A DNA stretch of 64,000 nucleotides. Source: Brachypterus glaber (taxonomy: Eukaryota; Arthropoda; Insecta; Coleoptera; Kateretidae). Below are positions 7,632 to 62,167 of the stretch, in pieces (position 1 is the stretch's first letter; each line of letters starts with the position of its first letter). A program made the translations under genes and the position numbers. The notes under the pieces are model-generated. The model saw only the letters and a program-made list of their open reading frames with translations, was not told where the DNA came from and did no database searches. The stretch is taken from assembly GCA_958510825.1 (NCBI GenBank), contig OY294054.1, positions 6,867,683 to 6,931,682 of the forward strand. The letters run 5' to 3'.

Positions 7632-7703
7632 ACGTGGCATCCCAACGAGTGACTGTCAAGACATTGACTACGTCCAAGTCTAGGGTACAAGGAAGAAAGC
7701 AGA

Positions 7704-8958: not shown

Positions 8959-8984
8959 ATAGTTTTCCCCAGCCTTCAAGTCCG

Positions 8985-11267: not shown

Positions 11268-11945
11268 GCCGTGAGGTTTGGTGGCAAAATATGGGATAGG
11301 CTATAAAAAAATTCATTAAATCTTGTCAAATTTGCCAGATGGCAAAGTCCGGACCATTACCAAATCCCCCGTTTCAGGCTATAATTCCTGAGGCGCCGAA
11401 TGAACATATTGTTGGATTTATACGGGCCCTTACCAAAGTCCCGGGGGTCTGTAGAGTACATTTGTGTGGTGCTTGATGTATTCACAAAATATGTCACATT
11501 ATATGCACTAAAAAATGCAACCACTGAATCCATTTTAAGGAAACTTCAGAGTGACTACTTCGTGAAACATTCGGTACCAAAACGTTTGCTTACAGACCAC
11601 GGGACACAGTTACAAATGGGGAAAAAACCTTTTTTGCCCTTAAGGGAGGTTATTGATTTGCAGAGCAGCTGGACAATTCAGATCACCATATAAGAATTTT
11701 TTGGCTAAGGAAAGTCTCCTTCTAAGTGCAACTCGTCGAAACCTTCGTTCCTTTAAAAATCCAGTGGCAAAGTTTGAGGTCGGAGATGTCGTGCTGTTGA
11801 GGGCCAATCCTATTTCTTCAGCTTTGCAAGCCCATACAAAATAAAAAAAACTATTGATTTGCAAACCTACATCCTAGAGCATGTAGATTCTGAAACTGAA
11901 AGAGGAATGTTCCATGCCCATCATTTAAAAAAATTTAATGAGTAA
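11268..11945 (+). pseudogene. Gypsy-1 integrase core remnant, partly deleted
   Basis: The frame 11400-11693 carries the first two catalytic Asp regions of a Gypsy integrase: LDLYGPLPKSRGS...VVLDVFTKY and RLLTDHGTQL. The segment with the catalytic Glu is missing: after about 11620 the sequence jumps to the C-terminal region (FEVGDVVLLRANPIS, 11777-11815), then a terminal HAHHLKKFNE motif ending near 11945. The enzyme cannot be active. From 11946 to 12024 there is only a short noncoding leader to the 3' LTR. Confidence 0.8.
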
Positions 11946-12024
11946 AATTTGAGGTAATTATATAATTATTCAATTTACCTCGTTAAAACAAAAATTTCTA
12001 GTTTTACGAGTTAGGGGGGGTAGT

Positions 12025-12527
12025 TGTGACATAGAGAAATTAGCTATTGTAAATGTTAATTTAAATATCTTTCTTTTCCTAAAGTACAGTTAGTATAAGT
12101 GTATGCGCATGCGCCAAATGAAACACTTCAGTGAAATTTCAGTAACCTTGACATCTAGGAAATTTTAAGGTTACTAGGTCAACCTTCTTTTCAGTGACTT
12201 GCAGAAGTCACTTCATTTCATTTTCATTTCTTGATCTGGAATTATAGCAAGCATCCTGCAGAGTTATTAAATTATTTTATGATAAATAATTATTCTGGTG
12301 CAGGTAAGCCATTTTATTCATTGTATTTTTGCATTTTACTAATTAATTCATAATTTACAGCTATTAATTTTACATTTCACTGAAGTGTTCCAAACTAACG
12401 TTCGTGATCTGACTACGGCCAATAAATTGTTAAACTGGTACTCTTTTTTTCTTTCGAACCTTCCCTGAGAGAGATTAAAACCATTCCTGGCGCTCAACAA
12501 TACAATTCTAAGGTTTTGATCAACACA
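12025..12527 (+). repeat. Gypsy-1 3' LTR
   Basis: Full-length partner of 7129-7631, preceded by TTAGGGGGGGTAGT. It is followed directly by ATCT, which also precedes the 5' LTR, and then by LINE sequence that continues the interrupted RT. Confidence 0.9.
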
Positions 12528-14095: not shown

Positions 14096-14259
14096 TGTTA
14101 TGTAGTTGTAAGTTTTTAGTTATCTAATGAGATTTTGATCAGATGACTTTGTAGCCAACTTCAGATCAATCACTTAGACTAACCTCACCTGTCACGTTTT
14201 TATACAATAAACTATTTCTAAGTCTTTAACATAATTTATTGAACCCTATAAACATAACA
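14096..14259 (+). repeat. Gypsy-2 5' LTR
   Basis: 164 bp, TGTTATGTAG...AACATAACA. It contains TTTTATACAATAAAC, where a TATA-like word and an AATAAA signal overlap. A very short LTR for a Gypsy element. Confidence 0.93.
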
Positions 14260-14381
14260 TGGCGCTGCCGCAGTGGTACGTGATGTCTGATTAGTTATTT
14301 TGTGAAAAAAATAACCTGAACTGTCCAAACGAAAATACGAAAAAGTGAGGTTAGAAACATTAAGACACGTGCAAAAAAAAC

Positions 14382-15647
14382 ATGGAATTCCTTAAACAAC
14401 CGAAACCCATGGTGTTGGAAGGTGATGTAGCTCTTAATTGGAGGAAATTTAAACAAAATTTTAACCTGTATATGACTGCAACTGGTGCAGACCAGAAAGA
14501 ACAGAAAGTCCAGGCAGCCGTACTTCTACATACAATAGGAGATGGTGTCCTAGATATAATTGATACATTGGGCCTGACAGAAGCTGACAAACAAAATAAG
14601 GTAAAGCTACTTACAGAACTAGAGAACTACTTCATTCCTAAGACCAACATAAGTGTTGAGAGACATAAATTTAACTCTCGTATTCAGCTTTCTACTGAAA
14701 ATTTTGATTCATTCTTGAAAGATTTACGAAGCATAGCTTCTTCCTGTGAATATGGAGCCCTGAAATATAGCCTGATTAAAGATAGAATAGTTTGTGGCCT
14801 GTACGATAAAAGAACAAAAGACAGATTGCTACGAGAAGACGAGTTAACATTAGACAAAGCAATAACTATTTGTAAAGCTGCTGAACTAACAGAAATACAT
14901 ATTCAGAACCTACTAGAAGAGAAACCTGTTAATGAAATAAAAAATTCGAAAAAGAAAAATAACGATACCCAGCAAACACAGGCACGTTGGCTGACAAAAC
15001 CGGGTCCAAGCCGATATAATCAAGAATTTCAGCCAGGTGGCAATCAAAATGAGAAGAAAGATTATAACCAAGGCAGATCCAATCAGCAGAACCAACGTTC
15101 AGGAGGGTACCAGATGTGCAAGTATTGTGGATATGCTAGAACACATAGAAGTTGTCCAGCCTTCGGTAAGATTTGTGCATATTGTAAGAAGCAGAATCAT
15201 TTTGCCCAGGTATGTTTGAATAAAAAGACTGTACATGCTTTTGAAAAAGAAGAAAAGACTGAAAATAATGATTTTATGTTGGGTACTTTAGACAATAATA
15301 ATAGTAGGGGTATAGAATGGTTTGAAAATATTTTTTTACCAGATTTAAGAAAAGTTTTAAGGGTTAAGCTAGATACTGGGGCTCAAGTTAATGCAATTCC
15401 TGTAGAAATTTTTAAAAATTTAAATTTAAAAGGTCAGTTGAGACCTTGTTCATATAATTTGACAAATTATACTGTAACAAAAATTAAAATTTTTGGTAGA
15501 GTCATATTAAAAGTAAAATATAAAAATAATCAGTATGCTCTTGAGTTTGTAGTAGTAGAAAACGGGTGTCCCATTCTAGGTTTAGATTCAATTTCAGAAT
15601 TAAATATAATAAAAAGGTTAGATATTGTGAATCATAGTAAGAAGTAG
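14382..15647 (+). CDS. Gypsy-2 Gag-protease polyprotein
   Basis: 421-codon intact frame starting about 120 bp after the 5' LTR. Residues about 1-180 are the Gag capsid region (NWRKFKQNFNLYM, YFIPKTNISVERHKF, SLIKDRIVCGL). A Gln/Asn-rich linker follows, then two Cys/His zinc-binding segments at about 246-277 (CKYCGYARTHRSC and CAYCKKQNHFAQVC). The retropepsin active site is LDTGAQVNAIP at about 330-340, closing with CPILGLDSI. Gag packages the element RNA and the protease matures the polyprotein. RT follows in the -1 frame after a short gap with stops, so Pol may need frameshifting or this copy has a small indel at about 15640-15650. Confidence 0.85.
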   Translation: MEFLKQPKPMVLEGDVALNWRKFKQNFNLYMTATGADQKEQKVQAAVLLHTIGDGVLDIIDTLGLTEADKQNKVKLLTELENYFIPKTNISVERHKFNSRIQLSTENFDSFLKDLRSIASSCEYGALKYSLIKDRIVCGLYDKRTKDRLLREDELTLDKAITICKAAELTEIHIQNLLEEKPVNEIKNSKKKNNDTQQTQARWLTKPGPSRYNQEFQPGGNQNEKKDYNQGRSNQQNQRSGGYQMCKYCGYARTHRSCPAFGKICAYCKKQNHFAQVCLNKKTVHAFEKEEKTENNDFMLGTLDNNNSRGIEWFENIFLPDLRKVLRVKLDTGAQVNAIPVEIFKNLNLKGQLRPCSYNLTNYTVTKIKIFGRVILKVKYKNNQYALEFVVVENGCPILGLDSISELNIIKRLDIVNHSKK

Positions 15648-16588
15648 AAGAGAAGTTTAACATAGAAGATTATGATTTATTTAGCGGTATAGGAAAAATC
15701 AAGATGGAACCAATTGATTTTAAGCTGAAAGAGGGGTATGTTCCAAAAGTTGTCCCATGTAGAAAAATCCCATTTCAACTAGAAGAGAAATTGAAAGCAG
15801 AATTACAGAAAATGTGTGATCAGGGTATCATAACCAAGATGGATGTCAATGAACCTACCGAATTCGTAAACCCCATAACTCTAGTAACCAAACCCAATGG
15901 TGACCTAAGAATTTGTTTAGATCCTTAGAGTTTGAATGAGTCCATTTATAGAGAACATTATGACTTTCCGACATTTGAAGAAATTACTCATGATATGGCG
16001 GGAGCTGAAGTTTTTTCGATTCTGGATGAGTTTAAAGGATTCTGGATGATACTGTTATCTGAAGAAGCATCTAAATTAACTACGTTTGCCACACCATATG
16101 GGCGGTTTAGATTTAACAGATTAGCATATGGACTTAAAAATGCTCCGGAAATTTTTCACAGGGTTATGGCGGAAATATTTGAAGGTATACCGAATTTAAA
16201 AATATATCTTGATGATATAGTGGTATTTTCGAAGAATAAAGAAGAACACGAACAGATTTTAAAAAAGATTTTTGATAGAGCGTTAGAAAAAGGAATAAAA
16301 TTTAACAAAAATAAATCCAAATTTTTTGTATCAGAGGTAAGATACATAGGGCACATTTTGAGCAAAAATGGAATAAAAATTGACCTTGATAAAGTGGAAG
16401 CTATTCAGCAAATCAAACCACCTGTAGACAAGAAAGAATTAAGTAGATTTTTAGGCATGTTGACCTATGTTTCGAAGTTTATTCCTAACCTTTCTCAATT
16501 AACGGTCAAGTTAGGAGAAATCATGAGAAAAGACAATTTATTTATGTGGACAGAAGTACCTCAGCAAGAATTTGAAAAATTAAAATAA
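15648..16588 (+). pseudogene. Gypsy-2 reverse transcriptase
   Basis: Pol continues from about 15652 in one frame with an in-frame TAG at 15926-15928 and a TAA at 16586-16588. Motifs seen are the RT entry FVNPITLVTKPNGDLRICLDP; FSILDEFKGFW with the first catalytic Asp (the usual A-S-G replaced by E-F-K); FNRLAYGLKNAPEIF; and KIYLDDIVVFSKN, the YLDD box. The thumb region has VRYIGHILSKNG and FLGMLTYVSKFIPNL. The two stops are the only obvious lesions in this domain, consistent with the young age suggested by the LTRs. Confidence 0.88.
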
Positions 16589-16945
16589 ATTATGATGCAA
16601 GCTCCAATTTTACAATTTTTTAACGAGAAAATACCCATTGTTCTATCTGTAGACAGCTCAAAAGACGGAATGGGGACAGTGATATTACAAAGAGGCCTGT
16701 GGCTTATGCGTCGAAAACACTGACACCTGCGCAGCAGAATTATGCGCAGATTGAAAAAGAAATGCTGGCAATCACATTTGGATGCCAGAGATTTCATCAG
16801 TACATATATGGAAAAAGATTTCTAGTGGAAAGTGACCACAAACCATTGGAAATAATCTTCAAGAAACCTATCAATAAATGTCCTTTGCGTTTACAAAAAA
16901 TGTTACGATTTTGAAGTAAAATACAAACCTGGCGCACAATTATTC
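16589..16945 (+). pseudogene. Gypsy-2 RNase H, frame-shifted
   Basis: Begins after the TAA at 16586 with QAPILQFFNEK and VLSVDSSKDGMG (catalytic Asp). Near 16697 the frame shifts, and the domain continues at 16699-16914 with VAYASKTLTPAQQNYAQIEKEMLAI (catalytic Glu) and VESDHKPLEIIF (catalytic Asp). A second shift near 16905 returns to the RT/integrase frame at YDFEVKYKPGAQ. It would degrade the RNA strand during reverse transcription if intact. Confidence 0.85.
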
Positions 16946-18451
16946 TTGGCAGATGCATTATCCCGAACTAGTTATGAAGATAAAAATTTTGATGTGAACG
17001 AAAATGAAATAGAAGCCCAAATAAATATTATTAATTTTGAGAACAAAGTAAGCCCAGAAAAATTTCAGAAAATAGCAGAAGAAACCAAGAATGATCCTGA
17101 GTTACAAAAATTAAGAAAAAATATAGAAGAGGGATGGCCGAACCAGAAAAATCAAGTATATGCAGAGATAAGACATTATTGGAACTACAGAGATGAACTA
17201 GTGCAAATAAAAGGAGTAATATATAAAGGAAATCAAATAGTAATACCGAAAAAGATGAGAGAAGAAATGCTTAAAAGATTACATTATCATCACATGGGAA
17301 TAGAAAAAACAAGACTTAGAGCAAATGAAACAATCTATTGGCCGTTCATAAACAAAGAGATAGAGGATCTAGTGGGAAATTGTCCTGCATGTTTAGTTTA
17401 TCAAAGGAAAAATCAAAAGGAGCCATTAATCAACAGAGAAGTTCCTAAGAGACCGTGGGAATTAGTAGCAGGTGATGTTTATTATTATATCCATAAAAAT
17501 TATTTAATATTAGTGGATTTTTACTCAAAATATCCAGAGATTTATCACTTGGAAAATATGACAAGTTACGCTTTAATAAGAGCAATGAAAGACATTTTTG
17601 CAAGACATGGAAAACCAGACGTATTTTTTAGTGATAATGGATCCAACTACGCAAGTTTGGAATTTAAAAAGTTTATGCAAGAGTGGGAAATCACGCATAA
17701 AACGTCTTCACCAACTTATGCTCAAAGCAATGGCTTAATAGAACGTCACATTCAAACGATTAAAAATCTTATAAAGAAACCGGATTATGATAACATAGAT
17801 TTTTATTTATCGTTATTGGAATACAGAAATACACCAGTGGGAAGAAATTTACCCACACCAGCACAGTTGTTATTCGGACGGAGATTGAAAGGACATTTAC
17901 CAGTCAAAGAAAATTTACTACAGCCCAAAATTTCATCACAAAATTATAATAAAGTTTTACAAAACCGGCAGGAACAACAAAAATACTATTATGATTCACA
18001 TGTTAAAAACCTTCCAGAATTTAAAGTTCAAGATAAAGTAATGGTAAATTTTGATAAAATCTGGGAACCGGGGATCATAGTAGAGGTAGACAAATCGAGA
18101 CCTAGAGCATATTTCGTAAAAATTTTTAAAACCGGCAATATTCTAGTTAGAAACCGACGTTTTCTAAGAAAATTTGATCAAGATAATTTTAAACTTAAAA
18201 ATCAAAACCTTTATGATCAAATTATGGAACAATTTCTTAACAAGGATCAAAAATTAAACAATAGACAAACGGATAATTATATAGTAACTGATAATTCAGA
18301 GGAAGTAAAAAGGGGAGAAAAAATAAAGACTACTGAAAATGAAAATATCAGCCATACCAATAATAATAATTCTAGCCATACCAATAATAACAATTTTAGC
18401 CGATCAGGCAGAGTTATAAAAAAACCAAAATATTTAAACGATTATGTCTAG
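16946..18451 (+). CDS. Gypsy-2 integrase
   Basis: 501-codon open frame. It starts in the RNase H-integrase tether (ADALSRTSYED). The HHCC zinc domain has His near residue 113-116 (LHYHHMGIEKTRLRA) and Cys at about 146 and 149 (CPACLVYQ). The catalytic triad is D177 (AGDVYYY), D230 (FSDNGSNY) and E266 (SNGLIERHIQTIK), with exactly 35 residues between the second Asp and the Glu. The C-terminus has FKVQDKVMVNFDKIWEPGII and a basic SRSGRVIKKPKYLNDYV tail shared with Gypsy-3. It inserts element cDNA into chromosomal DNA. The ATG may be fortuitous, as the protein is normally cut from Pol. Confidence 0.9.
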   Translation: MADALSRTSYEDKNFDVNENEIEAQINIINFENKVSPEKFQKIAEETKNDPELQKLRKNIEEGWPNQKNQVYAEIRHYWNYRDELVQIKGVIYKGNQIVIPKKMREEMLKRLHYHHMGIEKTRLRANETIYWPFINKEIEDLVGNCPACLVYQRKNQKEPLINREVPKRPWELVAGDVYYYIHKNYLILVDFYSKYPEIYHLENMTSYALIRAMKDIFARHGKPDVFFSDNGSNYASLEFKKFMQEWEITHKTSSPTYAQSNGLIERHIQTIKNLIKKPDYDNIDFYLSLLEYRNTPVGRNLPTPAQLLFGRRLKGHLPVKENLLQPKISSQNYNKVLQNRQEQQKYYYDSHVKNLPEFKVQDKVMVNFDKIWEPGIIVEVDKSRPRAYFVKIFKTGNILVRNRRFLRKFDQDNFKLKNQNLYDQIMEQFLNKDQKLNNRQTDNYIVTDNSEEVKRGEKIKTTENENISHTNNNNSSHTNNNNFSRSGRVIKKPKYLNDYV

Positions 18452-18545
18452 GGTAACTTAACATAACTTCACATAAGTAAACATAGCATAATGGAACTAT
18501 AACTTATAGGTGATATGTATTTATTTAGGAATAAAAAAAAGGAGA

Positions 18546-18709
18546 TGTTATGTAGTTGTAAGTTTTTAGTTATCTAATGAGATTTTAATCAGATGACTTT
18601 GTAGCCAACTTCAGATCAATCACTTAGACTAACCTCACCTGTCACGTTTTTATACAATAAACTATTTCTAAGTCTTTAACATAATTTATTGAACCCTATA
18701 AACATAACA
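18546..18709 (+). repeat. Gypsy-2 3' LTR
   Basis: 164 bp, partner of 14096-14259. It is preceded by the polypurine tract and followed by TCCGC and the rest of the split SINE. Confidence 0.93.
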
Positions 18710-18850
18710 TCCGCTTCACTTACGACTTCGCCAAATTTCAATTATTAATTAACTGAAAAAGGCAAATTGGCGCCGGTGAGAATCGAACTCACGCTATTTG
18801 TGTAGTAAACTCGCCAAGTAGGACGCGGTAGTCCACTACACCAATCCTCC
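18710..18850 (-). repeat. SINE copy 1, tRNA-like head
   Basis: On the minus strand the head begins at 18850. It has a pol III A-box-like TGGTGTAGTGG and a B-box-like GAGTTCGATTCTC about 50 bp apart, followed by ACCGGCGCC and a SINE body with CTTTTTCAGTTAATTAATAA. The anticodon region does not fold obviously, so I do not call a tRNA gene. It joins 13951-14095 across Gypsy-2. Confidence 0.85.
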
Positions 18851-22869: not shown

Positions 22870-23550
22870 GTGGTAAAAGTGCAGGATGGTAATGGTGCTT
22901 TTCACCCAGTAAGAATTTTGCTTGATTGTGGTTCGCAGGCTTCGTTTATTTCGCAAAAATGCCTAAATCGACTGGGGTTACCCCGAACATATTTTCGCGC
23001 AAGCGTAAATGGTATAAACCAGAACGCTCCGGTTATGGCCAGGGGAATCACCTCTTGTGTTCTCAAACCGCTTGATGGTGAGGAGCCAGTTCTACATGTA
23101 GAGGCCATGATTCTACCTTCGCTTATTTCCAATGTACCTTCGTGTTCTATTGATACTTCTCACTGGAAATACATTTCAGAACTGCCACAGGAAGATCCAG
23201 ATTTTAATCGCTCCAAATGTGTGGACATGATTTTGGGAACATCAGTGTTTTCTCAAATTTTAAAATCTGGAAGAGAGTCAGGTGGTCCAGGGAAGTCTGT
23301 GACATTGGAATCAGCTTTAGGATGGATCCTTATGGGCGAAATAAATACCCCCTCTCAGCCTCTTATCTATTTACTTTCGTCAGTAGATACATTTGATCTT
23401 AGAAAGTTCTGTGAACTTGAGCAAGTACCGGAAAAACACTTTATTTCTCCAGAAGAAGAACAGTGCGAGGAAATGTACAAAAATACACTTTCTCGTACCA
23501 CAGATACGTTGTCGCTTTGCCGTTCAAAGACCCTGAACCAGTCTTTTTAA
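22870..23550 (+). CDS. BEL/Pao-1 aspartic protease and Pol N-terminus
   Basis: 226-codon frame. The protease active site is at residues about 17-30 (ILLDCGSQASFISQ; D-C-G-S as in many Pao proteases), with RLGLPRTYFRASVNGI and MILPSLISN following. The conserved Pao spacer CVDMILGTSVFSQIL and SALGWILMGEI follow, which precede RT in this superfamily. The last residues overlap the RT frame that starts at about 23463. I read it as intact protease; the downstream RT is shifted by one frame. Confidence 0.85.
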   Translation: MVKVQDGNGAFHPVRILLDCGSQASFISQKCLNRLGLPRTYFRASVNGINQNAPVMARGITSCVLKPLDGEEPVLHVEAMILPSLISNVPSCSIDTSHWKYISELPQEDPDFNRSKCVDMILGTSVFSQILKSGRESGGPGKSVTLESALGWILMGEINTPSQPLIYLLSSVDTFDLRKFCELEQVPEKHFISPEEEQCEEMYKNTLSRTTDTLSLCRSKTLNQSF

Positions 23551-24238
23551 GACACTCAAGGTCAGTGGCTCTTAGACGGTTTCTTTCGCTCGAAAAAAGA
23601 TTTGACCGTGATGAATCTTTTAAAAATACTTATAGTAATATTTTCCAAGATTATTTGGATACTGGGCTAATGGAACTAGCATTTTCTAGTGGCCCCGAGG
23701 CTCCGAAGTTTTATTTACCCCATCACCCCGTTTGCAAATCTGGGTATAATAAAATTCGGATAGTTCTAGACGCGTCCGCTAAGACGCCAGAAAATAAATC
23801 GCTAAATAGCTGTTTGGTAGCTGGACCTAAGCTTCAATCAGATATCGCTACTTTGTTGCTTAATTTTCGCATACCTAAATACGTTCTCGTTGCAGGTATG
23901 TTTTTGCAAATTGTAGTAAAAAAATCACATCGTGATTATCAGCGTATACTGTGGAGATTTGACAAGCATTGTCCCATACAAGAATATGTTCTTACTTCCG
24001 TTGTATTCGGACACAATTCATCGCCATTTTTAGCACAACGTACGTCCAACAGCTTGTTGCAGACGAAGGACATAATTTTCCTTTAGCTGCCAAGGCCCTG
24101 ATCAAGGATCTCTATGTTGATGACATTTGCAGTGGTGCTGATTCTTTGGAAGAAGCTGCACAGCTCCAGGCGGAATTAATTGCTCTTTTAAACAAGGCCA
24201 AATTTCAATTGGGAAAATGGGCTTCAAACTCTCTTTAG
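23463..24238 (+). pseudogene. BEL/Pao-1 reverse transcriptase palm
   Basis: Frame 23463-24086 carries RYVVALPFKDPEPVF, SLEKRF, FYLPHHPVCK and RIVLDASAKTPENKSLN, then KYVLVAGMFLQIVV (motif A altered: the usual Asp-Ile is replaced by Gly-Met) and YQRILWRF. A frameshift near 24040 leads to frame 23969-24238 with LVADEGHNFPLAAKAL and IKDLYVDDICSGADS, the intact YVDD catalytic box. A TAG at 24236 ends it. The altered motif A and the shift make it inactive. Confidence 0.88.
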
Positions 24239-24888
24239 TTGCTTAAAAATATCGCTATTGATGAAAGACAATCGATTAATTTTGATTCATCTGATAGTTC
24301 TTTAAAAATTTTAGGACTTCATTGGCGTCCGTCCTCGGATTGCTTTTCTTTCGATGTTATGCTCACGTATAGTAGTCCCACAAAGCGCTCAATCCTTTCA
24401 GATATTGCTAGGGTTTGGGATCCTTTAGGTTTTTTAACACCATTAACTTTTTTTGCTAAGCACTTAATACAGTGTTTATGGTCTTTGGGACTGAATTGCA
24501 ATGATCCAGCTCCACCAGATATTGCAGAAAAATGGTCACTGTTCAAGTCTGAATTATCTGTACTTGGTTCCTTGGAAATTCCAAGGTTTTTGGATTTGGC
24601 ATATCCCAATTCTGAAGTTGAACTTCACGGATTTAGTGACTCCATCGAAAAAGGCTACGCTGCTTGTGTGTATATTCGGCAGATGAACACATTCGTGTAT
24701 ATTTTCTTGGTGGAAAATCTAAGGTGGCTACTTTAAAAAAGATTAGCTTACCCAGACTTAAGCTTTGTGGGGCAGTCCTTCTGAGTGACTTGATATATTT
24801 CGTTAAAGATACTTTTGCTGAAAAAATATCCTTTCATATGATTTTCGCTTGGTGTGACTCTAAAATCAAACTCTCGTGGATAAAGTAG
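24239..24888 (+). pseudogene. BEL/Pao-1 RT thumb and RNase H
   Basis: 24239-24736 encodes LKILGLHWRPSSDCFSF, SDIARVWDPLGFLTPL (the WDPLG hallmark of BEL/Pao) and VELHGFSDSIEKGYAACVYIR, the RNase H first catalytic Asp region. After a frameshift near 24715, 24720-24888 gives KVATLKKISLPRLKLCGAVL (RNase H Glu region) and FAWCDSKIKLSWIK (third Asp). Two lesions separate the parts. Confidence 0.85.
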
Positions 24889-30829: not shown

Positions 30830-32050
30830 TTTTAATCTGGTGTGGGGACTTTTTGAAATGACGCTACTTTTGATTTAGCTATAATTAAATACGTTCTAAA
30901 ATATACACAGAGTGCATGAATTTCTATTAAATCTAATGGATTATTACAAATAAATATATCTATTTGAATTGAAGTTAAAAGTGGTAGTTCATTTTAAAAC
31001 TGTTTCCAGATTTTTACCAAACTTTCTGGAAGTTGCTCGTCCCATGACAAGCCAAGAGTCCAAATGGTTTGTAATAAATGTTTTGCCATAAAAATGGATG
31101 GTGCGATCCACCCTCGAGGATCCAAAAATTCTTGCTATTTGCGTCAAAAAAAAATTGTTTTGTTGTTTTGTCATTTATATCTACTTGATACACAAATTTG
31201 TCTATTTTTGGATGTCAGTATAGGCCTAACATTTTAATAAAGGGATCTTTACCAAAAGAAAATGAAATCTGATCGTTATCTGAGAGATTTTCTATTGAAC
31301 TAGGTACACTGCTGCACCATTTGTGTAGTTCAAACCTTCCCCTCCTTAAAAGATCCGAGAGATCCTTTTGAAGGCTAATAGCTGACTCTACATCACAGCA
31401 CCCTGTAACCACAGCATCAATATTCATGTCTTTCTCTAAAACTTGACTAGCTACAGGAAAATCTGCCTTTTCGTCCTCAGCTAATTGATGGAGTGTGCGC
31501 AAAGCCAGCCAGGGTGAACTAGTTTCTCCAAAGGTTACTGTATTTAACATATATTCTTTTATAGGTTCTGACTGTGAGAATCTCCACAGAATACCTTGAT
31601 ATTTGCGATGTAATTCTATTATTTGAATTTGTCGGTACATCTGTTTGATGTCCGCTACTAATACTACTGCGTGTAATCTAAACTTTTTTTAATAAAATTC
31701 CGCATATATCTTTTTGCAATTTTGGGCCTACAAATAAAGTTTCATTTAATGAAATGTGTTGCAGACGCGTCGAAAACTACCAGAACCACTCTGCTAGTAC
31801 TTTTAGGTCGGTAAATACAATGGTGTGGGAGGCAATACTCACCTCTCTCTCACCGCTAAAGACATGTGCCCCCGATTTATATAATATAACATAACATTAT
31901 GAGGCTCTCAAATCTATATTAAATACTAAACGGAGCTCTAATGACAACAAGCGATGCTTAGCTGCGGCATAACTATTTCCAGTATCGGGATTTGGGATTT
32001 TAAATGGTAAAGCTACACTATATCGCCCTGTATGATCTCTACTATATGAC
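30830..32050 (-). pseudogene. BEL/Pao-2 reverse transcriptase and RNase H trace
   Basis: From 32040 leftwards: GRYSVALPFKIPNPDTGNSYA, CLPHHCIY, VVFDAS and LFVGPKLQKDICGILL, in changing frames. Frame 31640-31215 holds YQGILWRFSQSEPIKEYML, TVTFGETSSPWLALRTL and VLEKDMNIDAVVTGCCD. The last is the YVDD box degenerated to NIDA, so catalysis is lost. GRFELHKWCSS and IKMLGLY follow. IARIFGSSRVD (31165-31130) replaces the family's WDPLG, and LIEIH near 30940 is the RNase H start. Homology ends at about 30830. Confidence 0.82.
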
Positions 32051-32052
32051 TG

Positions 32053-32690
32053 TTATATTTCACATTCTAAATCTTCTTCAGACCCCCTCACAACGGAATG
32101 TGGGGGTTCTTCCAACGCCCAAAATAGATTCAATGTTAAATCTAAAGATTCTGCGACTGTTAAAAAACTATAATTAAAACTGGCTTTTTCTAAATTTACT
32201 TTCCCCATTAATATCCACCCCAAGCTGGTATTTATGGCCGTTGGTTGATGCGTATCTTCTGATATCTTTCCATCTAATATTTCTGTAAATAATTGTGCCC
32301 CTAAAAGCATTTCTACCGAACCAGGCTAATTAAATAATGGATCCGCCAATTTTTTTTTTTTTTTATATGTTCCAGATTATCCAACCGGAATGTTGTTTTT
32401 GGCATTTCTAAACAAATTTTTGGTATAATTATTGCGTCTATAATCAAGGGATCAAGGTTTTGAATTTTATACTTAATATTACAAGTTGTTATACCGTTTG
32501 CCTTTACTGAAACTTCACCCAAACCTATTGTACTGCTATTTAATCTAGAACGTTTCAAACCTAACTTACTAACGCATGAATCTGTGATATAACAAGATTG
32601 TGATCCCGGATCACAGATTGCACGAATGGTGCAAGGATTTCCAAAACTATCTAAAATATCTACCTGTGCTGTTGCTAATAAAACTGTACA
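32053..32690 (-). pseudogene. BEL/Pao-2 protease and Pol N-terminus
   Basis: From 32690 leftwards: AQVDILDSFGNPCTIRAICD, then PGSQSCYIT. Together they give the D-P-G-S active site, a proline where Thr/Ser/Cys is usual. Then KRSRLNSSTIGLGEVSVKA and DAIIIPKICLEMPKT; a frame change occurs near 32315. Frame 32310-32053 has MLLGAQLFTEILDG, TSLGWILMGKV and LFWALEEPPH, all typical of the Pao spacer between protease and RT. Confidence 0.8.
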
Positions 32691-33195
32691 TCTATTTTTG
32701 TATCGCTTGCTAATAAAGTTGTGTCTGTACTTGAATTATCTACTTTACCGACTTTATTTTCGGAGGGTTTTTCCACGACTCTACTATTATAACTATTAAT
32801 TTTTGGATTCTGAAAATTCAATAACGTGTGATGAGGTCCTGAACACTCCCCACATTTGGAACGTGACCTACATGCTCCAATTAAGTGGTAAGAACTTAAA
32901 CAATTGAGACAAATTTTACTATTCTTAGCTACTGTGTATCTATCCTGAGGCGTTTTTTCTAAAAATGCGGGACAATTGCTAATAAAATGTGCCTTTTGAC
33001 ACAAGCCACAACATGCAGTACGGTTATTAGTAGTTAAAAATGAATTAACGTTTGCCCTGTTGCGATTCTGTTGACTATAGTGTGCGGCATGAAAAGCTGT
33101 CTTTTTTGAGTCTACAGCCTCCAATGATTGACAATGTGCGGAAATGAAAATAAAGAATCGTATGAAGGAATTTCGCTAGAGTTTTGTTTATTTTC
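32675..33195 (-). pseudogene. BEL/Pao-2 Gag C-terminal part with zinc knuckles
   Basis: Frame 33124-32675 begins EAVDSKKTAFHAAHYSQ and contains CCGLCQKAHFISNCPAFLEK, KICLNCLSSYHLIGACRS and KCGECSGPHHTLLNFQ, the triple Cys/His array of Pao Gag proteins. Upstream, up to the foldback border at 33195, the translation NSSEIPSYDSLFSF then HCQSLEAV continues the family consensus but needs one frame change. Confidence 0.82.
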
Positions 33196-45681: not shown

Positions 45682-47286
45682 TTATGTTTTCTCATATTCT
45701 TTTAGATTAGAGGGCTTTTTTGAAAGTCTACCGGATCTAGTTTTTATACCATGAAAATTTTCTACTTTTTGGGTTTGGTCATAGTCTTTTAGATTAGAGG
45801 GCTTTTTTGAAAGTCTACCAGATCTAGTTTTTATACCATGAAAATTTTCTACTTTTTGGGTTTGGTCATTTATTACTAAATTAAAATTTGGGTTAAGCCC
45901 TTTGTCATTTTCTGCAATATTTTCACTGTAATTTGTTTTTACATTTATATTTTTTACATTTAAAGACATACATTTCTTTACACAAGGACTAACAGGACTA
46001 ACACTGTCTTCCTTTAATTTGGCGTTTATTTTTTCATAATTTTTGTTGCAAAAATTTTCAAATTTGTTGAAGTCTACTTCCTTACATTTTTATTAATTTC
46101 TGAATTTTTACTTTTAATATTTGAACTTCGCAAATTTAAACTTTGGCTATTTACGGTCTTTAATATTGCAGTTTTTGAATTTTGAGATTTTGGACTTTAA
46201 ATTTTTGGATTTTGCAAAGTTGAAGTTTACAGGGTTGGAGTTGAAGGTATATTTTGATTTAGATTTGAATTTTCAGAATTAAAATTTTGGCATTCTTGTA
46301 CTTTTAAGAATCTAAGATTTTCAAAACTTTTTACTGTTGGTTTTAAGTTTTGATTTTTATTTAGTGCATTTTCATGAAAGTTGTTTTGATTTTAATTATA
46401 CACAGGTTTTAAAAATCTTCTATTTCTTATAATAATACTGCCATTTTCTACTTTGACTTTATATGATCTAATGCCTACTTTTTCTAATACTGTTCCCCTG
46501 ACCCAGTTCTCCCCTAATTTATATGGTACATAAACTTTGGTATTATTATTTACAGTTTTGGTTTAAATGCCTTTTTTGTTTTGGGTAAAAGATCTCTAAG
46601 ATTACGATTCATTAAAACATTGGCAGGAGAATTTTCACCATTCATGGGTGTATTTCTGAAATCTAAAAGTGATAAATTTGGGTCTTTTTGGTCCATTTCG
46701 GTTTTTTTTAGAATTCGTTTAACCGTCTGGATCTGTCTTTCAACGGAACCATTGCTCTGAGCATATTTTGGGGATGAGTAAGTAATTTTAAATTCCCACT
46801 CATTTGCAAATTATTTAAACGAACTACTGGAAAATTCCGGACCCATATCCCCACATACCTCTAGTGGAATTCCTAGACGCCAAATATGTTTTTAAGTTAT
46901 CGATTACATTTTTATTTCATACTTCTACATATTTGGAGTAGTAATCAGTCACTAGGAGGTATGAGTTATTGTTACAATAAAATATGTCACAAGCTACCTT
47001 GTACCATGGTAGTTTTTTAATCTGATGATTTATCATCTCTGAGGACCTGAGAACGTTTGACATATGTGAAATGACAATATCATGTCAGATATATGTTTTG
47101 TCATACTTGGCCAGAAAAATGACAAATTTGCCTTTTTAGTACATCTAGGTGGCCATAGTGAAGTTTATCGAGAATTTCCTTCCTATGAGATTTTGGTAAA
47201 ATCAATTTTACTCCCTTATACAAAAGTCCGTCCGATTCTGTTATTTCATGCTTCAATTTATAGTAATATTTGATATTTTCAGGCAC
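45682..47286 (-). pseudogene. Gypsy-3 integrase and basic C-terminal tail
   Basis: The frame 47286-47101 gives YYKLKHEITESDGLLYKGVK and KEILDKLHYGHLDVLK, the His pair of the zinc domain. Around 46770-46560 the translation has PKYAQSNGSVERQIQTVKRI (catalytic Glu region), LLDFRNTPMN and SPANVLMNRNLRDLLP. The tail frame 45969-45682 contains an 87-bp direct duplication whose 29-residue unit includes KTRSGRLSKKPSNLKDY, matching the Gypsy-2 integrase tail. Stops and shifts are common between these blocks. 45132-45681 is the noncoding 3' region. Confidence 0.8.
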
Positions 47287-48520
47287 TTTTTTAAATATTT
47301 TTGGCCAACCATCTCTTACTATATTTCTTAAAGTTTTAAGTTCTTGATCTTGATCTGTTTTTTTCTACTAATTCTTTCCTTTTTACATCATTTATATTTA
47401 AGTTTTTAGAAATAAGGCATACTTGAGGTTCTATTTCAATGTCTAAATTTTCGTCAAATACACTATTTTGGTCAAAAGCTCTTGAAAGACAGTCAGATAT
47501 TAATAAATCTTTTCATGGTTTAAAAACTAAGGTAAAATTGTACTTTTTAAGTTGTACAAGCATTCTCTGTAATCTTGGTGGACATGAATTTATAGGTTTT
47601 TGCATAATTTGCAACAATGAGCGATGATCGCTTTCTACATAAAAATGATTAGGAAAAATAAACTGAAAATACTTGACACAACCAAACCAAACTGCTAATA
47701 ATTCTTTTTTATCTATCTGAGCACATCGTGTCTATTATTCTGGTTTAGGCTAGCCCCCATACCAAATTGCGAAGCATCTACACTGATAGTGGTAGTTGCG
47801 TTGACATAAAAAAACTTAAGCATGGGCTTTTTGTCAAATTTAACTTGAAATTTTCAAATGCTATTTGATGCTCTTTTTCCCATTTAAAAACTAAATCCTT
47901 TTTTAACGAAGTTCTGAGTGGTTGAGTTTGATCAGTCAAGTTTCTTGCAAATTTACCTACATATTGAACCATACAAAGAAAACGTTGAACAACATTTTTT
48001 GGTGTTGGCATTTTTAAAATACCTTCAATTTTTGAGTTTTCAGCTGATATTCCGTTTTTGTTTATTTTATGCCCCATAAATTGAATTTGATTTACTAAAA
48101 TTTTACATTTTTCTCTATTAAACCGCAAATTATATTCTGATGCTCTTTGGAGCACCGCTTCAAGGCGACGATTATGTTCCTGCTCTGTTTTTTCCAAAAA
48201 TAGCCATGTCATCAATAAAAAACACGCAACCTTCTAGGTCATGAAATATTTCATTCATGTATTCTTGGAACACTTCAGAATCAGAACCTTATACCATAAG
48301 GTAAACGTAGGAACCGGTAACGCCCAAAAGGTGTTCCAAAACTACAAAGACGACAACTTTCTTCGTCTAAGGGTATATGTAAAAATACCTGTTTTGCATC
48401 AATTATACTAAAATATTCTGAGCCTGCCATATTTACGGTTAAATCTTCTAGAGTAGGGAGTTGTGTATACCTTCTAATAGTTACTTTATTCAAATCTTGA
48501 GGGTCTAAACAAAGATCCAA
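47287..48520 (-). pseudogene. Gypsy-3 reverse transcriptase and RNase H
   Basis: 48520-48281 encodes LCLDPQDLNKVTIRRYTQLP, SEYFSIIDAKQVFLHIPLDE (catalytic Asp region) and FGTPFGRYRFLRLPYGI. After a shift, 48280-48215 contains the region around the polymerase aspartates, degraded. 48215-47778 gives EQEHNRRLEAVLQRA, IQFMGHKINKNGI, VVQRFLCMVQYVGKFARNLT and the connection. RNase H between 47780 and 47300 is only partly legible. It is inactive. Confidence 0.78.
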
Positions 48521-48699
48521 CAGAAGGTTCTTGCTCTAATTTGTCTAAAGATTCTTTATATTTTTGTTTAATTGAGAAAGGTACTCTTCTAATTGGATGG
48601 ACCAGAGGTTTTGCATTTTCTTTAATGTCTATATGGTAGGGTTTTTCTAAACATCCCATACCCTCAGATAATCATACTATTTTAAAATTTCATCTATTT

Positions 48700-49425
48700 T
48701 CAAAAACGGCGTATCAACCGAGTCAAATTAATATCAACACAGGCTTTCAAACCAAGAATATAAATACTATTAATTTCTGCTACATAAAATAAAATAATAT
48801 ATTTTTTATTTTTATAAAAACATTCAATATTTGTCTGACCAATTATTGGCACAGAATCTTTTGTATAAGAGAGTAACTTGGCACTAGTTTTAGAAATTTT
48901 CTTAAAATCAAAATTCATGTCTTTCAGTGTACTTACTGAGATCAAATTTGCCATTGCTCCTGTGTCGATTTTCATCTGAATGTCCTGTTCCCTAATCCTC
49001 AGAGATGCTGTCCACGAGTCTTCAGAAATTACATCTACTGTCTTACGGTCCAACATACCTATAAATAAAAATTCATCAGGGCTACATTCTCCTACTTGGT
49101 TTTCAAATCTTTCGTCATCATAATTAATCATATTGACACGTTTTTTAATCATTTTATTTTTGCAAACATTACTGAAATGGTTAAGTTTATTACAACTTAG
49201 ACAACGTTTATTATACACTGGGAATTTTCCTGCAACATGTGAAAAATTACAGTACTTACATTTATTAGTATGACTTGAGTTTTTATTAAAATTTTTATTT
49301 GAGTTATCATGATTATGATTTTTAAACGTTACGTTCCTTGGTTTATGATGTGAAGTTGAAGGTTTTCTCTTTTCCAGATAATCAATCGCTGGTTTTCCGT
49401 GAATTTCCATGTTGATACGAGACAT
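48700..49425 (-). CDS. Gypsy-3 zinc knuckle and protease
   Basis: 241-codon frame. Residues about 55-90 hold CKYCNFSHVAGKFPVYNKRC and CLSCNKLNHFSNVC, the same two-part zinc arrangement as Gypsy-2. The protease active site is KIDTGAMANLISVSTL at about 155, with SIYILGLKACVDI closing the fold. It is open over its whole length although neighbours are broken. The start ATG is probably not the natural one because it begins inside Gag. The region 48521-48699 linking it to RT is degraded. Confidence 0.8.
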   Translation of the reverse strand: MSRINMEIHGKPAIDYLEKRKPSTSHHKPRNVTFKNHNHDNSNKNFNKNSSHTNKCKYCNFSHVAGKFPVYNKRCLSCNKLNHFSNVCKNKMIKKRVNMINYDDERFENQVGECSPDEFLFIGMLDRKTVDVISEDSWTASLRIREQDIQMKIDTGAMANLISVSTLKDMNFDFKKISKTSAKLLSYTKDSVPIIGQTNIECFYKNKKYIILFYVAEINSIYILGLKACVDINLTRLIRRF

Positions 49426-50163
49426 GTATTCTCAATATTCAGTGCATATCTGATGGCTTCATCTAAACTAACCACGTCATCCTGGAGAATTTTTTCACGG
49501 ATTTTTTGACTCTTGATGCCACAAATGAGTACATCCTTAATTAGAGAATCCTTCAAATCCCCAAATTCACATGCTAATGAGAGGTTTAAAGTTCTATGAT
49601 CTTCTTCTTCTTTCCTATTTGTTTTGGCGTTGTATATACGTTTTCGCCAATTTCACCCACGGGATTTGACTTCACTACCGCAAATTACTTGTAACTTCGG
49701 TTTTAATTTTTATTATTATTTTTCACTAATTTTTAGTTTTAGTTTGGCAGAGGGGTACCAGCGGTAAGTCTAAGAAATGAAAGAGATGATAAGGGATTAC
49801 ACTGCCACTTTTAAATTTTAAAAGTTCTATGATGTATTGCTCCAAAGTTTGAAAATCTGACTGTTTGCAGGTTAGGAATTAGTGTCTAACGTACGTCAAA
49901 TTTGTTTTAGGTGAAAAGTGGTCGTCAAACTTTTTTATTAAAATATCAATTTTATCTATTTCTGCTTCTTCAAACTTGAATGAGTTAAAAATAAGAAATC
50001 CTTATTCACCAATAAGGCTTAAAAGTTGAGCAAATTGCGTAGATTCTTCTTTTTTATTAATTTCAGTGGCTTTCAGGTAGGTTTAGAATAGCCGCTTCCA
50101 TAGCTTCCAATTTTCAGCAACATTGTTTTCAAAATTCATAGGTGGGACGCCTCTAAAATCCAT
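49426..50163 (-). pseudogene. Gypsy-3 Gag
   Basis: Starts with the ATG at 50163 (MDFRGVPPMNFENNVAENWK), about 145 bp inside the 5' LTR. FAQLLSLIGE and IKKFDDHFSPKTNLT follow with in-frame stops, as in Gypsy-2 Gag (ALNWRKFKQNFN, FIPKTNIS). The segment about 49640-49860 does not match Gag and may be a small insertion. Homology resumes at 49590-49430 with ACEFGDLKDS, LIKDVLICGI and LQDDVVSLDEAI. Confidence 0.75.
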
Positions 50164-56959: not shown

Positions 56960-57706
56960 TTAGTCTATTAGGCAGATGTCCCGCATAGCACAAAACAGTT
57001 CTAAGAATTCTTAAAATAAATATTGGGAATGTTGTATGATTCTAAGAATATGCGATGTTTTACGTAGAACGTTCTTAGAAGGTTTTAAGACATTCAATGG
57101 ATGCCGTTTTAATCATGCAAAACCTTCTATGAGCATTATAAAAAAAAATTCTTGCAGAATATACACAGCATCTTATAACTTGCAAAACTATCTAACCTAA
57201 TTTATGATCTGTCAAATCTATAGTAGTCAATATCCAGAGTAGTGACATGTGTAATAATAACATTGTATGGTACAAAACAATGTCTTAAAGTATTATACAA
57301 CAACAACATTTAAAAATCAGGAATATTACCATTTTCATGCATTAATTTGTTTGTATACAGGTACATACCTTTCTATGCTTATAATTTTGAATATTTGTGA
57401 TTTATTTTTTTTTAGGTTATAAATTCAATTTGTAAGTTTATTAGGATTCCTAAATAAAGATTATTATTATTATTATTATAACAATCTTAAATAGCTTACA
57501 AACACTAGACTTATTAAAATCACCTATCACTATACTTAGGTCTGTAATTATAATCAAATAATACATGATTGGAATCACCAAAAACAATTAAATGTATAAT
57601 TTTTTATCTGCTACTGTAAAACATGTCAAAAATGTATTGCAGAACAGTGGCAAATTCAAATAAACCTTTTATGAGAACATTCTTAGAATATGCATAACAT
57701 AATTAC

Positions 57707-57927
57707 TGTGACGTATTAGGCGCGCATGCGCGTAATACCTTAAGCCAGCTTATCTGGCGCTATCAAAAACCCGGGCTCTTCCCATCGACCCTCGCCTGAG
57801 ACGGTTCGTTTCGCTGCCGACCGACAAAAGTACTGCCATGTAACCGACTGTGATAATTTATATTTAATATACGGCAACTATATTTATACATGTGTTTTAC
57901 TAAAGCCCCTCGTCGTAAAACATAACA
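57707..57927 (+). repeat. Gypsy-4 5' LTR
   Basis: 221 bp, starts TGTGACGTATTAGGCGC and ends AACATAACA. It has a GCGCGCATGCGCG palindrome near the start and a GGTTCGTTTCGCTGCCGACC block. Confidence 0.93.
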
Positions 57928-58005
57928 CTGGCGACAGGATTAAAAGTTTTTCGTGTAAATTCTCTCTCAATTTCGTAAAAAAACGGGTGACCTGTACGGG
58001 ACCGC

Positions 58006-60918
58006 GTGTGCATCAAAATGGCTGTTAATATTGGACAGGTATGTGAATTTAACTGTGCTATGGATGACTGGACGATTTATGCTGAGCATTTGGAGCAATA
58101 TTTTTGTGCTAATAAAATTGAAGAGCCGAAAATAAAAGTGGCTACGCTGCTGAGTTTAATTGGGACCAGAGCGCATAAAACTTTGAGGGAACTATGTTTC
58201 CCAGAGTTGCCAAAAGTCAAAAGTTATGACCAGCTGTGCGAAATGTTAAAATCGCAGTTTTCGCAAGTAACTTCAGTATGGAGAGAGAGAATAAGATTTT
58301 TTGAGTGTCGGCAAGCGGTAGACGAAAATGTGCAGGAGTATTTTGTCAAATTAAAAAACTTGAGCATGAATTGCAAGTTTGGTGAAAATTTGGATGAGCA
58401 TTTAGCAAACAGATTGGTGTGTGGGCTGCTGGATGGTGCTGTGAAGGATAGGCTGTGCGAGGAAAAGACGGTAAAAGAAATTTTGGAAGTGGCTATTAAA
58501 AAGGAAGCAACTAGGGTTCAAAATGGCGACGCATTCAAGGTGACGCATTTCCGCCGACGTATAAATCCAGGTACATCGAAGCATCATGGCAACGCTGGAA
58601 CAAATCTGCGTGCGCAGGATGCGCGGTGGAAGAATGGTCATTCGGGAACAAACATGGCGTCTACGTCGAAAGGTTTTGGTAAAATTGATGTAAATACGAA
58701 TAAAAAATGTGAATCGTGTAATAAATCGCACAAAGGACAAGACTGTAAGTACTCTGGTTATATTTATAATGTGTGCAATAAAAAAGGGCATCTAGCTAGG
58801 GCATGTAGATTAAAAAAACGTCAAGTTAACCTAGTGGACATTGAAACTTTTGAAGAAGATAAAATTTTTAACATTTCTCATTTAAACCATTTCGATAATA
58901 ACTTTAAAATCAATGTGCATTTGGGCAATGTAAAGCTAGAAGCGCAAGTGGATAGTGGGGCAAGTGTGTCTTGTGTAAGCAGCAGAACTTTTAATAATTA
59001 TTTCGCTAATTTTAATTTAAAACACGACTCTATAATGTTAAAAGCTTACAACGGACAGCCTTTAAAGCCACTGGGGCACTTCAATATTGACTTAACTTTT
59101 AAAAATGTGACCAAAAACATTAAATTTTACGTTATACCTGAGGGTAGTGTCACAATTTTGGGCAGAAATTGGTTTGAACTTTTCAATGTGCGGTTAGAAA
59201 TGGTAAATTCAATAGTCGGGGTAAACAAAGACATTTTAAATTTAAAAAACAAATATAAAAACGTATATAGTGATAAACTTGGATTATTTAAACACACTAA
59301 AATCTCTTTACAGTTAAAACCTGATGCCAAACCTGTGTTTCTGAAGCCTAGAAATGTACCAATTACCTATAGGAAGCCACTGGAGCAAGAATTGGAAAGA
59401 AGCTATATTTGGTGGCCAAATATAGACAAACAAATTGAACAGATGGTAAAATCCTGTATACCATGTCAGCACCAAAGACCTGACCCACCAAAAGCTGAGT
59501 ATACTCCGTGGGAACCAGAAAACGCAGCGTGGGATCGAGTACATGCTGATTTTCTTGGGCCAATTCAGGGACAGTATTACTTGATTTTAATTAATTCTTA
59601 TTCTAAATTTCCAGAAGTATGTCTAATGGAGATGATGACCAGTGAAGCAACTGAAGAAAAGTTAAGGGACATACTGGCACGGTTTGGTTTATTTAAAACC
59701 TTTGTTACGGACAATGGAAAACCCTTCATTGCCAAAAGTTTTCAAACATTTCTCAGGCAAAATGGCGTAAAGCACGTAACACCGCCAGTAGCGAGCCCGT
59801 GGTCAAATGGCCAGGCGGAAAATTTCGTGAAAACTTTCAAGAATTCCGTAAAAGCAGCGCTCATGGACGTAAGGAATAAAGGTATTAAAATTTCTGTTTT
59901 AATCTCTAGGTTCCTATTCAACTACAGGAATACTATTCATGAAACCACGAAGAAAACTCCATCAGAACTGTTATTTGGGCGAAAATTGCGCGGTAGAATG
60001 TCCTTGCTGAGGGGAAATACGCCGGACGTCAATGGTGAAGTCCAGTGTTCCATTCGTGAAGCCCAGGAAAAGCAGAGACGAAATTACAGCACGGGAAAAC
60101 CAAGAAAGTTTTCCAAAGGCGAAAGTGTATATGTAAGGGACTATAGGAAAGTAAACTCCAAGCAATGGGCACCCGCAAGTATAGAAAAAGTCACAGGGAA
60201 AAGTACGTATTTATGTAAAGTACCAGGCATAAATAGTCTATGGAGAAGGCATACCAACCAAATAATAAATAGGCAGGAAAAACTAGAAACAGAGGGAGGT
60301 TTGAACAATGGCAGAAACGAAGGTAAAGCTGTATTGAGTAAGAATTTTAGTAATAACCAGTGTAAAATTTTAACTAGTGATTTTAAAACTGTCCGAGATA
60401 ATTTGAATGTGGACATTTTAAATAATAGTGTGTCTAGATCAAAGGACAAAATGAGCAGGTCAATTTTACAAAACCCTAAAACCCATGTTTTTCCAAATAG
60501 ATCACCAGAAGTCCAAGAGCACCACCCAGTACCTCCAGCAGAACCACCAGCACCAATCCGAGACGCCGCACCAGCACCAGTCGTCGCACCAGCACCAGTC
60601 GTCGCACCAGCACCAGGCGTCGAACCAGCACGAGGCGTCAAGCCAGCACTAGTCGTCGAGCCAGCACCAGCCGTCGAGCCAGCACGAGGTGTCGTACCGA
60701 CGCCAGACGTCTTGCAAGCACAAAGCAAGGCGTCAGAACAAGCAGAGTTTAGCAAGGCAGCGAAAAGCAGCGCAGAGGGTACCAGTACAAAAAAAAAGGT
60801 ATGGAAAAGAGCAACAAAAAGCAGCAGGGGCCAACCACCTCCCTACTCAAAAATGTGGAGAGGGAAGGTAACAAGAGAAGAGTGGTTGCGCCGAAGAGAT
60901 TCAGCGATTATATCGTGA
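58006..60918 (+). CDS. Gypsy-4 Gag-protease-integrase polyprotein without reverse transcriptase
   Basis: 970 codons uninterrupted. Translation may start at the second ATG (58018, context CAAAATGG). Residues 1-175 are Gag capsid (VTSVWRERIRFFECRQ). 235-267 are zinc knuckles: CESCNKSHKGQDC is complete; the next, YNVCNKKGHLARAC, has lost its first Cys. The protease active site is QVDSGASVSCVS at 315-326, with TILGRNWFELF near 384. At 450-465 the linker before RT (VPITYRKPLEQELER) runs straight into SYIWWPNIDKQIEQ of the integrase, so RT, RNase H and the integrase HH pair are gone in frame. CIPC (484-487) and the catalytic D515, D569 and E605 (35-residue spacing) are intact. A basic C-terminus with an Ala/Pro/Val repeat (847-900) follows. 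Confidence 0.93.
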   Translation: MCIKMAVNIGQVCEFNCAMDDWTIYAEHLEQYFCANKIEEPKIKVATLLSLIGTRAHKTLRELCFPELPKVKSYDQLCEMLKSQFSQVTSVWRERIRFFECRQAVDENVQEYFVKLKNLSMNCKFGENLDEHLANRLVCGLLDGAVKDRLCEEKTVKEILEVAIKKEATRVQNGDAFKVTHFRRRINPGTSKHHGNAGTNLRAQDARWKNGHSGTNMASTSKGFGKIDVNTNKKCESCNKSHKGQDCKYSGYIYNVCNKKGHLARACRLKKRQVNLVDIETFEEDKIFNISHLNHFDNNFKINVHLGNVKLEAQVDSGASVSCVSSRTFNNYFANFNLKHDSIMLKAYNGQPLKPLGHFNIDLTFKNVTKNIKFYVIPEGSVTILGRNWFELFNVRLEMVNSIVGVNKDILNLKNKYKNVYSDKLGLFKHTKISLQLKPDAKPVFLKPRNVPITYRKPLEQELERSYIWWPNIDKQIEQMVKSCIPCQHQRPDPPKAEYTPWEPENAAWDRVHADFLGPIQGQYYLILINSYSKFPEVCLMEMMTSEATEEKLRDILARFGLFKTFVTDNGKPFIAKSFQTFLRQNGVKHVTPPVASPWSNGQAENFVKTFKNSVKAALMDVRNKGIKISVLISRFLFNYRNTIHETTKKTPSELLFGRKLRGRMSLLRGNTPDVNGEVQCSIREAQEKQRRNYSTGKPRKFSKGESVYVRDYRKVNSKQWAPASIEKVTGKSTYLCKVPGINSLWRRHTNQIINRQEKLETEGGLNNGRNEGKAVLSKNFSNNQCKILTSDFKTVRDNLNVDILNNSVSRSKDKMSRSILQNPKTHVFPNRSPEVQEHHPVPPAEPPAPIRDAAPAPVVAPAPVVAPAPGVEPARGVKPALVVEPAPAVEPARGVVPTPDVLQAQSKASEQAEFSKAAKSSAEGTSTKKKVWKRATKSSRGQPPPYSKMWRGKVTREEWLRRRDSAIIS

Positions 60919-61428
60919 CGATTGACTGATTTATTTATACATTTTAATTTGTTGTTTGTTGACTAAAGTAGTGTTTTTTTATTGTATTTGATTTTGTGAT
61001 GTAAGTTGTTGGCAGTACTTAATGTTATTTAATTGTTTATTGTTAGGTTATATATATATATATACATATTTAGGGTGATAAATATTATCGAAATGTGATA
61101 TTTTTAAGGGTCTTGCTCAGCACTCCTATTTGAGATTTTTGGTTAATTAAGTCAGGTTAATTTATATTTTAGTAATTTAATTTACATAAATGACTACAAC
61201 ATAGTGCAAATATCTTGGTTGATTTTAAGGTAACACTTATTTTGCTGTGGTTAGCATACAGTCATGCCATTCTATACAAAACAAGTTCATATTATATAGA
61301 GTTTGAGGCAATCACGTTAACCACAGGAATTTTGGTGTTATAAAACAGATCACACGATTTATGGCACTTGTATATTTGCCATTACAAAATGGACAAAAGA
61401 AATTAAAAAAAAATCTAGAAAAGGGGTG

Positions 61429-61649
61429 TGTGACGTATTAGGCGCACATGCGCGTAATACCTTAAGCCAGCTTATCTGGCGCTATCAAAAACCCGGGCTC
61501 TTCCCATCGAACCTCGCCTGAGACGGTTCGTTTCGCTGCCGACCGAAAAAAGTACTGCCATGTAACCGACTGTGATAATTTATATTTAATATACGGCAAC
61601 TATATTTATACGTGTGTTTTACTAAAGCCCCTCGTCGTAAAACATAACA
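61429..61649 (+). repeat. Gypsy-4 3' LTR
   Basis: 221 bp partner of 57707-57927. Preceded by 60919-61428, a noncoding 3' region with TATATATATATACATAT and the purine tract. Confidence 0.93.
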
Positions 61650-62167
61650 ATTACTAAGAACATTCTTAACAGAAATTTCTTGGAATATGCATTAGAAGAA
61701 TAATATAAGAAAATTATAAGGATATCTTATGCATATGCATAGATTATGCATTTTAAGAGCAAATTTTAAGCATAATCATAGCATATCTAAAAGTTTATTC
61801 TAAGAATATTCCCAATAGAATAATTAGAGAATATTCATAGATCATCGGTGCTATTTGGGGTAGTATTTTGATTATCATTTTCCATCATTTTACCACCCGT
61901 CGGGGGCCGAACCATTGTTTATTGGAAAGGCATACAAAAATGCATCTTTAAAAAATTTTTAAATTTTCTTTGCTATTTTTGTAGTATTTTTGATAAATGC
62001 TTGGATAATTGTATTTATGTTATACTGCAAAAATCCAAATTTCCCACTGCAAATTTAAATTTCCCACTGCACATTTTATGTTTGGTTATAAATGCACATT
62101 AAAATAACCCCTGCTGAATAGGTAATGATAGTCGGAAATCTATCATTTTAAAAACCCAGTTGTCTAC

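Follow-up and report, generated by a model that had tools for sequence, protein, structure and literature searches.

The element described here occupies positions 57707-61649 of a 64,000-nucleotide stretch of the genome of the beetle Brachypterus glaber (hereafter, the window), and has the form of a long terminal repeat (LTR) retrotransposon whose single open frame joins Gag and protease to a truncated integrase with no intervening reverse transcriptase (RT). The 5' LTR (57707..57927, plus strand, with TGT...ACA ends) and the 3' LTR (61429..61649, plus strand) are each 221 nt long and 98.2% alike, with four mismatches across their length, and the pair is flanked by the target-site duplication ATTAC on the left (57702..57706) and on the right (61650..61654). 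A primer-binding-site-like stretch (CTGGCGACAGG..., 57928..57945) follows the first LTR and a purine tract (AGAAAAGGGGTG, 61417..61428) adjoins the second, both on the plus strand. Between them, also on the plus strand, lies one open frame of 970 codons (58006..60918; GTG at 58006, first ATG at 58018). Its Gag portion (58018..58830, end approximate; PF03732) bears two zinc knuckles, of which the second has lost its first cysteine (codon 58765-58767), and is followed by an aspartic protease with the motif D-S-G-A (58909..59196; PF13975/PF00077, both below the curated cutoff). A deletion junction then falls within a shared 4-nt tetramer, AAGA, at 59397..59400, where RT, ribonuclease H (RNase H) and the histidine half of the integrase zinc finger are gone. 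The integrase beyond it (59401..60345, end approximate) lacks the histidine pair of the H2C2 motif and one otherwise invariant aspartate (codon 59593-59595), and keeps the catalytic D, D-35-E residues. When the frame was searched against Pfam, Retrotrans_gag and rve exceeded their cutoffs, gag-asp_proteas and RVP fell below theirs, and no RT or RNase H family appeared at E <= 1. A first-pass annotation of this DNA had reported the 221-bp LTRs, the ATTAC duplication, a primer site, the purine tract and the 970-codon frame, together with the lack of RT, one damaged zinc knuckle, a protease D-S-G, and integrase residues D515, D569 and E605, the last two separated by 35 residues as read from the frame; each of these was recovered, the primer site being retained as primer-site-like only.

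Searched against proteins, the whole frame returned 61 relatives and its integrase part 28, together representing 86 distinct proteins. The best whole-frame relative, P0001, is a K02A2.6-like protein of 1293 aa from Anoplophora glabripennis; longhorn beetles are the source of several of the named relatives, P0001 among them, which would point to a beetle host. This protein matches the window frame in the same order, at 43% over Gag-protease (P0001 residues 4-458) and 56% over integrase (971-1277), and differs in possessing RT, RNase H and a complete H2C2 finger, the window frame having no counterpart of its residues 459-970. An LTR pair, a short target duplication, a primer-site-like start, a purine tract and kinship to K02A2.6-like sequences are all features of Ty3/Gypsy elements found here. 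The Pol order of that group, protease-RT-RNase H-integrase, is not found in the window copy, and is encoded in two other copies of the same family, on contigs C160 and C17. Since these relatives encode RT and RNase H in order, we regard the window copy as Ty3/Gypsy by descent and defective; judged by its sequence, the element is a K02A2.6-like Ty3/Gypsy LTR retrotransposon.

The extent of the missing block was gauged against 15 aligned relatives picked from the 61. In 12 of them the gap holds 510-525 residues, the other three being partial (164, 36 and 24), and it spans RT, RNase H and both histidines of the integrase zinc finger. The loss is thus nearer 513 residues than the 600-700 first supposed. 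Nor does the junction lead into an intact integrase zinc region, as had been proposed, for the cut falls inside H2C2 and removes both histidines, on the combined testimony of Pfam, the alignment and motif counts. The Integrase_H2C2 model scored above its cutoff, yet only profile positions 31-58 of 59 were covered. When 87 proteins (the 86 relatives and the window frame) were scanned, 14 gave no motif match and were not assessed, and the histidine pair was kept in 70 of the remaining 73; besides the window frame, the exceptions were P0047, in which the match is a Gag knuckle, and P0049, in which the histidines stand wider apart. The same half is absent by comparison with solved structures: the Ty3 integrase (PDB 7q5b) matches frame residues 468-658 in sequence, and the prototype foamy virus integrase, the top-scoring solved chain, matches residues 439-708. 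Of the features of a working retroviral-type integrase, the window frame retains D, D-35-E and lacks the H2C2 zinc finger. Three predicted proteins, P0023, P0073 and P0084, are likewise missing much of the RT between their Gag-protease and integrase matches; their gaps end elsewhere, and may reflect faulty gene models.

We searched the species' own assembly (648,179,424 bases in 842 contigs, the window lying on contig C19) with junction, LTR and integrase queries, scoring every first-look candidate (14 of 14 for the LTR); very common words were skipped, and all copy numbers are lower bounds. The genome-wide junction search, proposed with the first-pass annotation, gave five matches to a 120-nt query, only one of which, the window copy itself, crosses the junction; the other four are its separate halves on C160 and C17. 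The integrase query found the window copy, C160 (95%), C17 (86%) and a 66% fragment on C4. Among the three integrase-bearing copies of at least 86%, only the window copy is without RT. In C160 and C17, RT and RNase H sequence lies between the halves with shifted frames, and both copies are broken; in C17 the halves stand about 14 kb apart, no match was seen to P0001 residues 590-661, and some 11 kb separating the two loci were left unread. The 14 matches to the LTR query, the window pair included, comprise solo LTRs on C11 (5-bp duplication TTTAT) and C4 (5-bp duplication ATTAT), both 97-98% like the window LTR; a fragment on C1 with LTR sequence only (181 nt matched); remnants on C15 and C12 with an LTR and short interior pieces only (13,001 and 10,001 bases read, respectively); a 3' end remnant on C321; the 5' LTR of the C160 copy; the LTR pair of the C17 copy, 86.5% alike across 178 columns; and three part-LTRs. 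The C12 remnant joins element positions 234 and 3163, indicating a separate large internal deletion with different ends. The family is low-copy, and consists mostly of solo LTRs and remnants. Beyond the assembly, viral_contigs yielded no related loci and no LTR-pattern matches, and genome_contigs no matches to the junction pattern. The first 10 nt of the primer-site-like stretch are identical in the window copy, C15 and C160 and different in C12, where the stretch (from base 1724 of that locus) begins CTGGCGACGA as opposed to CTGGCGACAG in the other three, and so varies within the family; no transfer RNA lies within the 64-kb window to name the primer.

Comparison with the RT-bearing copies also bears on how the junction was formed. 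The left and right sides end in GGAAAGA and CGCAAGA, respectively, in C160 and are the same in C17; the window sequence joins them at the common AAGA. The short homology guessed at in the first-pass annotation accordingly exists, and is 4 nt long; about 1.9% of random junctions would share four or more bases. The two AAGA tetramers lie 1590 nt apart in C160, a distance divisible by three; because the frames of that copy are shifted, P0001 is the better guide to the length lost from the parent, about 513 codons. We envisage that a full-length element under normal selection, a complete parent, gave rise to the window insertion, and that some 1.5-1.6 kb between two AAGA tetramers were lost with the frame staying open. 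The loss could have occurred by a template jump during reverse transcription, or by end joining or slippage after insertion, both of which fit; as a result, Gag, protease and the catalytic portion of integrase share a single frame. The single junction, the AAGA tetramer, the RT encoded by other copies and the lesions in the window frame together argue strongly that this is a short-homology, in-frame deletion in one copy of a low-copy K02A2.6-like Ty3/Gypsy family, rather than a lineage that borrows RT, and we hold this to be very probably correct. The copy in the window is not known to have moved since the deletion. Both possibilities had been raised at the outset: a deletion confined to this copy is upheld by a junction present at one locus, with its halves separate in C160 and C17, while a derived family borrowing RT finds no second junction copy and has an integrase deprived of its zinc-finger histidine pair. 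The latter was to be abandoned if the junction occurred in this copy alone, with otherwise identical full-length copies elsewhere; the first part holds, whereas the two copies that bear RT are both broken and, at about 86-95%, fall short of identity.

Several observations weigh against a single deletion-scarred copy. No near-identical RT-bearing parent was found with the junction and integrase queries in the species' own assembly, and the two solo LTRs, at 97-98%, could derive from copies of the deleted form. The remainder come from the pattern of substitution, counted over the three copies in window codon context with a transition weight of 2. Changes private to the window copy relative to C160 and C17 number 43 over 2158 sites (21 synonymous, 22 nonsynonymous, no stops), an excess of synonymous changes over the 25% expected (p ~0.0006) which speaks against a copy that was dead along its whole branch. 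The excess is seen in integrase (13 synonymous, 9 nonsynonymous; p 0.0007); Gag-protease gave 8 and 13 (p 0.13). Private changes in C160 were 10 synonymous, 22 nonsynonymous and one stop (p 0.26), and the contrast between the window copy and C160 is not significant (Fisher p 0.16); C17, a plainly broken copy, also shows an excess (48 synonymous, 80 nonsynonymous, five stops; p 0.001). Divergence of the LTRs implies about 0.9% change since insertion, which corresponds to about 20 of the 43. The remaining changes predate insertion, when the lineage replicated, and selection on the complete ancestor suffices to account for the excess, without any need for selection on the RT-less form. As proof of function, the synonymous excess was set aside, the LTR age leaving enough time before insertion.

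The integrase aspartate missing from the window frame is kept in 41 of 41 aligned relatives, and its loss is private to the window copy relative to C160 and C17; the missing Gag knuckle cysteine, kept in 38 of 38, has been lost in C17 as well. Loss at these two invariant positions is consistent with decay after insertion. About 1.1-1.3 stops would be expected since insertion, and the probability of none is about 0.27-0.32. An open frame by chance is thus an outcome of roughly 0.3, which supports the earlier caution that the absence of stops is weak evidence for selection. Ranked among 42 sequences by departures at conserved columns, the window copy comes third for Gag, second for the knuckle and sixth for the protease, and fourth or sixth for integrase depending on threshold, where it exceeds the mean of the others by about 1.3-1.5 standard deviations; it lies on the high side and is no clear outlier.

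Other explanations can be considered against this background. A derived non-autonomous family, supplying Gag and integrase, borrowing RT, and multiplying in the deleted form, would account for the open frame, for the retention of the LTR ends, primer-site-like start and purine tract, for the synonymous excess along the window branch and for the solo LTRs. However, the junction is found at one locus only, the 648 Mb hold just three integrase-bearing copies of at least 86%, two of them with RT-encoding sequence, and the integrase is without both zinc histidines and the otherwise invariant aspartate, so that we consider such a family very unlikely. Comparably improbable is a variant in which the deletion is older than this insertion and the RT-less form transposed in trans one or more times, with nothing left of its other copies except solo LTRs such as those on C11 or C4. 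Assembly artefact, by collapse or mis-joining of a full-length copy, would agree with a single locus; but both LTRs and a matching duplication are present in a 26-Mb contig, the junction falls on microhomology, and no near-identical RT-bearing copy was found to collapse, leaving this extremely unlikely. Reverse transcription of a spliced genomic RNA, the apparent deletion being an intron-like removal, has in its favor a clean junction without filler and the precedent of spliced human L1 insertions described in PMC5860796, but we excluded it, its likelihood being negligible, since over all 4-nt placements in both C160 and C17 the removed piece starts AA, AG, GA, AC or CT and never with a GT or GC donor.

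Some further features of the locus and its surroundings were recorded. The C-terminal tail of the frame (60346..60918, plus strand) includes 18-nt tandem repeats at 60570-60698 that encode its Pro/Ala/Val-rich sequence and are overlapped by an antisense frame of 204 aa; the repeat tail had no match among the 86 relatives. The insertion flanks at 57651-57695 and 61648-61692 share an imperfect 45-nt repeat (71%), and the target site may have been repeated DNA. Elsewhere in the window, a second K02A2.6-like Gypsy element at 14096-18710 has 165-nt LTRs 99.4% alike, and coding for Gag, RT, RNase H and integrase spread across several frames; it shares no nucleotide match longer than about 20 nt with the element at 57707-61649. 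A Gypsy-type element at 7128-12525 has 502-nt LTRs 98.2% alike and contains Gag-protease-, RT- and RNase H-like ORFs, and remnants of a further Gypsy element on the minus strand (46586-49586) were recognized by protein matches of P0001 and the window frame. ORFs at 22870-24736 and 31215-33124 resemble, by eye, BEL/Pao-type Pol.

Deleted retrotransposons that nonetheless proliferate are known in other hosts. In the mouse IAP 1-delta-1 subtype (PMC6466679) an internal deletion has fused Gag and Pol in one open frame, as in the window, and the deleted form multiplies, whereas that in the window was found once. Plant TR-GAG, LARD and TRIM elements are non-autonomous LTR elements without pol functions, and TR-GAG, lacking the POL region, is multi-copy in coffee (both PMC5818461); in the window, by contrast, integrase sequence is retained, in the single copy found. 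A multiplying non-autonomous family would be recognized by several insertions with the same deletion, and here the junction occurs once. Because the window copy stands alone, nothing shows it behaving like the IAP or TR-GAG types; it is very probably a deletion-scarred single copy of an ordinary insect Gypsy retrotransposon. Had the RT-less form moved in trans, for which we see a slight chance, it would be the insect counterpart of that mouse IAP subtype. A recurrent junction with different target duplications would have meant a mobile Gag-integrase element in an insect. A frame that stays open where RT has been deleted does not in itself, when seen in a single copy, count as evidence for a family that borrows RT; it is the copy count in the element's own genome, the homology at the junction and the boundary within the zinc finger that jointly settle the question.
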